36,270 nt of DNA from Actinomycetes bacterium. GTDB taxonomy: Bacteria > Actinomycetota > Acidimicrobiia > Acidimicrobiales > Bog-793. The position numbers and the translations under genes were made by a program. The notes beneath the pieces are model-generated. The model saw nothing but the letters and a program-made list of their open reading frames with translations, made no database searches and was not told the origin of the DNA. The stretch spans positions 1 to 36,270 of the forward strand of contig JAKACA010000016.1 in assembly GCA_021796455.1 (NCBI GenBank). Reading direction: 5' to 3'. Positions 10,751-12,796 of the stretch are shown piece after piece (position 1 is the stretch's first letter; each line of letters opens with the position of its first letter).

Positions 10751-10999
10751 ATGGCACTTGACCCGCTCCTGCTCGAAATCCTGGCCTGCCCGGAGGACAA
10801 GGGGCCGCTGCTGTACTTCGCGGACGAGGACACGCTCTACAACCCTCGGCTGCGCCGCCGGTATCGCATTGTCGACGACATCCCGGTAATGCTCGTCGAC
10901 GAGTCCGAGACCGTGAGCGATGACGAGGATGCCCGTCTTAGGGCAAAGGCGGAAGCGGAAGGGACCAGCCCGAATTTCGGGCCGCCGCCAGAGCGGTGA
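10751..10999 (+). CDS. Trm112 family protein
   Basis: MALDPLLLEILACPEDKGPLLYFADEDTLYNPRLRRRYRIVDDIPVMLVDES. Confidence 0.9.
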   Translation: MALDPLLLEILACPEDKGPLLYFADEDTLYNPRLRRRYRIVDDIPVMLVDESETVSDDEDARLRAKAEAEGTSPNFGPPPER

Positions 11000-11128
11000 C
11001 GCTCGCGTGATCGACGTCGAGGGTCACGGTCGACGGCGCCTCTCCCGGACGTGGATGGCATCATCCTTCGCTGTCGGCCTCGTTCGGCGCGCGCGCGTCC
11101 TGCAGGCTCGCCCCCTAGACTGCGAGGC

Positions 11129-11345
11129 GATGGGTGTGCATGGGTCTGTGGTTGCGAGTCGATGCCAGTCGCAGGCGAAACGACCCACGTAAGGCGACTT
11201 GTGGTCGCTGAGCATGGTGCGGCTTAGAGGTAAGCCCTGCCCGTCGAGGTGCCGGCTGTCGGTGCCAGGCGGAGAGAGGGTGAAGCGTGTCGATGGCGAC
11301 GTGGAAGGACCGGGACGCGCACCGCTCGCGGTGCGCCACCAGGGC
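11129..11345 (+). ncRNA. Candidate structured non-coding RNA upstream of hpf/raiA (possible raiA-motif RNA)
   Basis: Four successive hairpins: TGGGTC(11141-46)/GACCCA(11182-87) enclosing TGCGA/TCGCA; GCGAC-ttgtg-GTCGC (11194-11208); GGCTTA-gagg-TAAGCC (11223-11238); GCGCACCG-ctcg-CGGTGCGC (11317-11336). No convincing protein in any frame; TAGACT -10-like hexamer at 11116-11121. Confidence 0.4.
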
Positions 11346-11441
11346 GCCCACGGCGGGCATGTGAGCTCTTCAGCAGGCGAGTGTGGGGCCAAAGACCAGG
11401 TCAGCCGTGCGCACCCATCTCGAGCGACGGAGGGAGGCGGC

Positions 11442-11834
11442 GTGAGGCAAGTGGAGCTGGATGTCGTCGTCACAGCTAGGCATCTCGACCTCGACGATGC
11501 CCTGAAAGAGGTTGCCAGGAGCAAGGTCGGCCGGCTCGGCCGTTTCCTCGGCGGGATGGAGCGGGCGGAGGTCTGTTTCTCGCGGACACCGACAGGTCAC
11601 CTGGGCGACCCGGTCACCTGCGAGATCGTGCTCGAGGGTCACGGGCATGCGGTCAGGGCAGGTGGCAGCGGCAACCGACCCGCGGCTGCCTTGGATGCGG
11701 CCCTCGAGAAGGCCGAGCTGCAGCTGACTCGTCTGAAGGTCAAGCTTGTCGAACGGTCCCGTCCGCGACACGGCAGCGCGAGCCGTCATCTCGAGGGCTC
11801 AGAGGGACCGTTCGAAGGGATCACCGAGCTCTGA
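11442..11834 (+). CDS. hpf: Ribosome hibernation-promoting factor / RaiA, short form
   Basis: GTG start with GGAGGGAGGCGGC SD; VELDVVVTARHLDLDDALKEVARSKVGRLGRFL...CEIVLEGHGHAVRAGGSGNRPAAALDAALEKAELQLTRLKVKLVER. Confidence 0.85.
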   Translation: MRQVELDVVVTARHLDLDDALKEVARSKVGRLGRFLGGMERAEVCFSRTPTGHLGDPVTCEIVLEGHGHAVRAGGSGNRPAAALDAALEKAELQLTRLKVKLVERSRPRHGSASRHLEGSEGPFEGITEL

Positions 11835-12796
11835 GCTCTGGCCGCCCGCTCTCCGATCTCGCTCTTGTTGGTGCTACGGCGACTGGCAAGACGGCTCTCG
11901 CCCACGAGCTCTGGCGTCGCGTGCGCGGCCTCGAGCTCGTGTCCATAGACGCGATGGCTGTCTATCGGGGGCTCGACATCGGGACCGAGACTCCCTGTGA
12001 CTCTCCTGCGCCGTGGCATCTTGTCGACATTGCCGATCCGCACGAGGAGTTCTCGGTGGCACGGTTCCAGGAGGCGGCCCGTGAGGCGCTTGGATTGATC
12101 CGTGCTCGCGGCCATCTCGCGGTTCTTGTGGGCGGTACCGGCCTGTACCACCGCGCGGTTATCGACGACCTCGATCTTCCCGGCCGGTTTCCCGCCGTCG
12201 CCGCCGAGATCGAAGCCGAGCTGGCCAGTGGTACGGGCCCGACCGCCCTGGCAGGCCTATATGAGCGTTTGCAGCTGCTCGATCCCCTGGCTGCGGGGCG
12301 CATCGAGCCAGGCAATGCCCGGCGCATCCTGCGAGCCCTCGAGGTGACGCTGGGCAGCGGAAGACCCTTCTCTTCCTTTGGCCCAGGCCTCGCCAATTAC
12401 GAAGCGCCGGCGGTGGTGACGATGGCGGGACTCACGCTCGAGCGTGCAGAGCTGGACCGCCGCCTCGAGGCACGCCTGGATGGACAGATGGATCGGGGCT
12501 TCTTGGAAGAGGTGGCCGCGCTCTCGGCCCGCCCCGGGGGCATCTCTCGGACTGCACGCCAGGCCATCGGCTACCGCGAGCTGCTGAGCGTGGTCGAGGA
12601 GGGTGTCTCGCTCGCGGAGGCCAGGAAGTCGATCATACGGCGGTTGCGGGTCTTTGCACGCCGCCAGGAAGCCTGGTTCCGGCGCGATCCGAGGGTGAGG
12701 TGGTTCGATGCCTCCGACATGCACCTGTCCGAGGCGGTGCTCGACTGGTGGAGGAGCTCGGGACCCGCGGCGTCATGGGAGACTGGCGGACGGTGA
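11831..12796 (+). CDS. miaA: tRNA dimethylallyltransferase MiaA; start codon probably CTG
   Basis: Frame includes LALVGATATGKTALAHELWRRVRGLELVSIDAMAVYRGLDIGTETP; the P-loop lies upstream of the first ATG/GTG/TTG (GTG 11921). CTG at 11831 overlaps hpf TGA, with GAAGGGA at 11814-11820. Confidence 0.88.
   Translation: MSSGRPLSDLALVGATATGKTALAHELWRRVRGLELVSIDAMAVYRGLDIGTETPCDSPAPWHLVDIADPHEEFSVARFQEAAREALGLIRARGHLAVLVGGTGLYHRAVIDDLDLPGRFPAVAAEIEAELASGTGPTALAGLYERLQLLDPLAAGRIEPGNARRILRALEVTLGSGRPFSSFGPGLANYEAPAVVTMAGLTLERAELDRRLEARLDGQMDRGFLEEVAALSARPGGISRTARQAIGYRELLSVVEEGVSLAEARKSIIRRLRVFARRQEAWFRRDPRVRWFDASDMHLSEAVLDWWRSSGPAASWETGGR

Follow-up and report, generated by a model that had tools for sequence, protein, structure and literature searches.

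The window, by which we mean the whole 36,270-nucleotide stretch of actinobacterial DNA analysed here, carries a Trm112-like protein gene, a short hpf (raiA) gene for ribosome hibernation and miaA in that order on the forward strand (Table 1). The 442 bp between the stop codon of the Trm112-like gene (10999) and the GTG of hpf (11442) had been described in the initial annotation as about 440 bp without a convincing protein, and a structured RNA occupies this interval. A cmscan search with all Rfam 15 families matched RF03072, the raiA RNA, over the full length of its model at 141.9 bits, 40 bits over the gathering score of 101.3 (E = 2.7e-35, computed over the window), and no other Rfam family matched in the window. 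The element is clearly a raiA-motif (ModT) noncoding RNA, a family already known from bacteria. The raiA-motif candidate proposed for the Trm112–hpf gap from position and size alone is thereby borne out, with the published pseudoknots and helices present and covarying; the alternative offered alongside it, a novel class of structured RNA, is ruled out by the RF03072 match. Taken alone, the RNA of the window is an ordinary addition to the raiA family.

Table 1. Features of the raiA RNA locus and its neighbours (window coordinates).
Feature	Position	Strand	Details
Trm112-like protein gene, upstream	10751..10999	+	PF03966
TAGACT, -10 element (TANNNT) of the RNA	11116..11121	+	TANNNT conserved in 43/43 loci
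raiA (ModT) RNA, P1 lengthened 6 bp past the Rfam ends	11129..11419	+	RF03072 plus covarying flanks
RF03072 match	11135..11413	+	model 1-209, 141.9 bits
P1, 5' strand	11129..11153	+	extension 11129-11134, P1a 11135-11143, P1b 11146-11148, P1c 11149-11153
P1, 3' strand	11394-11419	+	pairs with 11129..11153
P3 hairpin	11158..11184	+	P3a 11158-11161/11181-11184, P3b 11164-11166/11174-11176; 100% paired, n = 43
pk-1, 7 bp	11167..11224	+	AGTCGCA 11167-11173 with TGCGGCT 11218-11224
P4	11185..11188 (5' strand, CCAC); 11383-11386 (3' strand, GTGG)	+	invariant, n = 43
P5 hairpin	11193..11209	+	99.5-100% paired; both-side changes in 5/6 pairs
pk-2, 2 bp	11215..11216 (5' half); partner 11390-11391	+	95.3% paired
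P6/P7/P8 domain, larger 'variant 2' form	11236..11377	+	covariation
P6	11236-11240/11373-11377	+	
P7	11241-11272	+	
P8	11273-11372	+	includes window-specific hairpin 11317-11336
hpf/raiA, short form, 130 aa	11442..11834	+	PF02482, 54 bits; S30AE domain only
miaA (tRNA dimethylallyltransferase), open frame	11831..12796	+	PF01715, 211.8 bits

The Rfam match ends just 28 nt before the start codon of hpf, which is GTG 11442 or, by alignment of the relatives, GTG 11451; the ribosome-binding site of hpf sits outside the conserved fold. No PF16321 C-terminal domain was found in the window's genome. Long HPF proteins with the C-terminal dimerisation domain were observed in outgroups (G033, G032, G039, G028 and G025), at the RNA or elsewhere, and in the window and its family HPF is reduced to the S30AE domain alone; in this family the protein was apparently shortened first and lost later. 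G019, G022, G005, G028 and G034 encode a second, divergent HPF-like protein (loci L065, L067, L068 and L060), about 255 aa long, in which two PF16321 domains accompany a weak S30AE domain. We take it to resemble the mycobacterial RafH type.

The structure that we tested (P1, P3a/b, P4, P5, P6, P7, pk-1 and pk-2) follows the cryo-EM description, from which the names of the P3 elements are also taken (PMC11751092), and the alignment comprised the window RNA and 42 relatives of the same order. Helices P1, P3, P4, P5 and P6 and both pseudoknots of the cryo-EM structures all form in the window. Across the 43 sequences standard pairs filled 94.3% of cells and 30 of the 59 pairs changed on both sides, and none of 500 shuffles attained the observed pairing or covariation values. 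Shuffle statistics can be inflated by related rows; in a control that preserves relatedness, sliding the partners by 1–3 columns lowered pairing to 32–48% and left 13–19 pairs changed on both sides. Changes on both sides affected 14 of the 18 outer pairs of P1, whose inner five pairs are invariant, and its extension, in which GATGGG (11129–11134) pairs with CCCATC (11414–11419), is paired and covaries in most relatives. The P3 loop (11167–11173) forms one half of pk-1, which is 99.7% paired with both-side changes at two pairs; UA and CG exchange at one pair of pk-2 and in P6. In the P6–P8 arm, both-side changes occurred at 24 of 35 predicted pairs among 21 family members, and an E-loop has been described in this variant 2 arm for some raiA RNAs. 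P1c, P3b and P4 never vary in the 43 sequences, so that covariation neither supports nor contradicts these helices, and P4 was for this reason assigned from the published structure.

Measured against this fold, the local stems listed in the initial annotation all exist as complementary segments and are only partly right as conserved structure. Its GCGAC-N5-GTCGC stem is the covarying P5, and its 8-bp hairpin at 11317–11336 (GCGCACCG/CGGTGCGC) caps the variable P8 in this genome only. TGGGTC/GACCCA and, nested within it, TGCGA/TCGCA do not hold up as conserved stems: 83% and 69% of cells were paired, covariation was absent, relatives break the pairing, and the bases belong to P1, P3/P4 and pk-1. 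Nor does GGCTTA/TAAGCC, which actually lies at 11221–11236 rather than 11223–11238, gain anything over shuffled sequence (96.5% versus 96.4% pairable), and it clashes with pk-1.

The suggestion of a -10-like TAGACT just upstream proved sound. A TANNNT hexamer begins 14–25 nt 5' of the RNA in all 43 loci of the order, a near-fixed distance, compared with 7 of 927 same-size windows farther upstream (0.8%), and beyond the order it was found within 30 nt upstream in 27 of 30 further actinobacterial loci. This conservation points to a putative housekeeping-type promoter belonging to the RNA itself, and a transcription start near 11129, where the lengthened P1 has its base, would fit a self-standing RNA gene. 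No -35 box was recognisable upstream of TAGACT at the window locus; missing -35 boxes are common in high-GC actinobacterial promoters. No intrinsic terminator was found in 10950–11950. A T-run follows the extended P1 in low-GC actinobacteria (L101, L087, L077, L089 and L094) and is absent in the window; in those organisms P1 may therefore act as an unusual terminator stem whose loop is the entire RNA.

The raiA RNA was present in 32 of 40 relatives, in 16 of 149 genomes sampled across the class and in 103 of 298 sampled across the phylum. An hpf gene is present in 16 of the 43 genomes of the order that carry the RNA, and adjoins it in 15. In 26 no HPF gene was detectable; completeness is 90% or higher for 24 of these. 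The absences rest on PF02482, a clade-tuned model built from 15 sequences, and PF16321; PF02482 covered the f1/order set and six f20 genomes, and the remaining f20 genomes rest on the clade-tuned model and PF16321. G019, whose sole HPF-type protein is the divergent 255-aa paralogue described above, was left out of the 26. That a generic model had overlooked hpf was rejected as an explanation, because neither PF02482 nor the clade-tuned model nor PF16321 gave a match in any of the 26. Among the RNA-bearing genomes sampled from the phylum, only members of this order (7 of 103) carried the RNA without hpf, and elsewhere in actinobacteria the two can lie far apart on one contig (86 kb in G206 and 1.7 Mb in G433).

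Where hpf does not adjoin the RNA, the following gene is miaA at 13 loci in the family of the window, that of G019 among them, so that in relatives without hpf miaA stands directly after the RNA, and secA at ten f20 loci and in G006; other genes follow at four loci, including, as judged by eye, a LuxR-type response regulator in G036 and G037. G006, in which the RNA precedes secA and a separate contig carries a short hpf (L018, L056), is intermediate between the hpf-adjacent and secA arrangements. A second TANNNT lies between the RNA and secA at all 11 loci, mostly at +28, indicating that the two form separate units at these loci; of the 15 loci with hpf next to the RNA, only one has such a hexamer in between. 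A near-constant CCGGTAGGGT about 28 nt past the RNA, directly before secA, was observed in f20 (L034, L036–L041 and L043) and looks like the secA promoter. The difference between the miaA and secA contexts implies at least two separate losses of hpf with the RNA retained; within the window's family a single loss is enough on the MiaA tree, where it is weakly supported (51/79). Retention of the RNA and its putative promoter after loss of hpf argues for an independent function rather than a switch of hpf.

We consider it likely that the locus holds a self-standing raiA RNA gene, the product of which would, by analogy, act in trans. The RNA would be transcribed from its own TAGACT promoter, starting near 11129, and would fold compactly, with the long P1 joining the ends, pk-1 docking P3 on the pk-loop, P4, P5 and pk-2 in place, and the large P6–P8 arm extending the fold. 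As with ModT of Clostridia, it may be a stable, abundant RNA that helps to adjust the cell to growth phase. Because neither an intrinsic terminator nor, as a rule, a second promoter separates the RNA from hpf in the clade, hpf would probably be made by read-through on the primary transcript of the RNA, from which cleavage at P1 would release the mature RNA.

The short gap to hpf in the window means that a cis effect on that gene is possible, and the RNA could be a riboswitch-like leader, its fold sensing a signal and controlling read-through into hpf or hpf translation. In the window and at 14 other loci, RNA, ribosome-binding site and hpf follow one another closely in tandem, no second promoter intervenes at 14 of the 15, and Rfam types RF03072 as a cis-regulatory riboswitch; like riboswitches and cis leaders, the RNA immediately precedes a gene of its own orientation. 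Unlike them, it has a downstream gene that varies or is absent, the constant hpf association failing in the 26 HPF-less genomes, and in f20 the downstream secA has a -10 element of its own. Neither an expression platform nor a terminator was found and the ribosome-binding site is outside the fold, although a non-canonical platform is conceivable. A review judges the placement of the motif inconsistent with a riboswitch, so the case against that role has already been argued in print (PMC11477304). A cis leader fits the window in isolation, not its relatives, and we regard it as unlikely; the evidence stands against control of hpf as the main role of the RNA, despite the name raiA.

Slightly less probable still is a double role, in which a trans-acting RNA also serves as the 5' leader that tunes the next gene, hpf or, after its loss, miaA. 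In hpf-less members of the family the miaA match (tblastn) begins 95–196 nt after the RNA with no second TANNNT in 12 of 13, and in L024 possible start codons occur already directly after P1. Such closeness may merely reflect compact genomes, however, and no conserved helix blocking the ribosome-binding site was observed. That there is no RNA gene at all, the hairpins being chance products of GC-rich DNA or the region coding from 11199 into hpf, can be practically dismissed: such DNA does fold readily (shuffles average -129 kcal/mol) and an in-frame ORF (11199–11834) does run into hpf, but the Rfam score, the folding energy (z = -2.4) and the invariant loops speak against chance, the initial methionine of HPF homologues aligns with 11451, and the covariation refutes both versions.

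Compared with ModT of Clostridium acetobutylicum and C. difficile, the self-standing RNA proposed here shares the full-length model, P1, P3–P6, pk-1, pk-2 and the invariant junctions, the variant 2 P6–P8 arm, a promoter of its own (here putative) and a downstream hpf/raiA. It differs in having a Trm112-like gene upstream rather than comFC, in length (279 nt at the Rfam ends versus about 210, with longer P7 and P8), in lacking a U-run terminator after P1, and in that relatives keep the RNA after hpf is lost. ModT is abundant, stable and trans-acting and has a SigA promoter, and among raiA RNAs hpf/raiA has been reported downstream in 66% and comFC upstream in 74% (as quoted in PMC11706538); the window has the former and not the latter, and neither is obligatory in the family. 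Three cryo-EM structures have been published for the family, and the RNA is a compact monomer (PMC11751092, PMC12286853). OLE, ROOL and GOLLD are likewise large, highly structured bacterial noncoding RNAs without a known biochemical role, but they are unrelated in sequence and have no Rfam match in the window, and raiA RNA is monomeric (PMC12286853).

The raiA RNA is among the most widespread structured RNAs without a known biochemical role, and the lineages described here narrow what that role can be. In C. difficile the influence of ModT on sporulation passes through c-di-GMP (PMC11706538). GGDEF domains were absent in 11 of 37 RNA-bearing actinobacterial genomes, picked with small genome size in mind, and all 11 are at least 96% complete, so that the c-di-GMP link behind the sporulation phenotypes cannot be a universal function. 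Lineages that keep the RNA without HPF and without diguanylate cyclases imply that its core role can need neither. It is doubtful, if conceivable, that the RNA of this order has turned into, or has been from the outset, an independent stationary-phase or ribosome-related factor that can persist, and perhaps compensate, after loss of all HPF-type proteins and of c-di-GMP signalling, with a core function older than both.

Soares 2024 is one of two genetic studies of the raiA/ModT RNA. Part of the decoupling of RNA and hpf may already have been reported (Soares et al. 2024, Weinberg et al. 2017); in the literature covered, we found no prior statement of genome-wide absence of HPF and GGDEF in RNA-bearing lineages and no genetic test of any actinobacterial raiA RNA. 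Acetohalobium arabaticum, presented as the Actinomycetota orthologue in the ModT paper, belongs to Bacillota in the NCBI taxonomy, and that paper therefore tested no actinobacterial ModT (PMC11706538). The lineages lacking HPF and GGDEF have small genomes (1.5–2.2 Mb) and can be used for a gene co-occurrence search. In G022, a second, partial raiA match (L111, G022:C125:5894-5975) stops at the contig end and is probably not a second gene but a fragment of the assembly or a variant from another strain.
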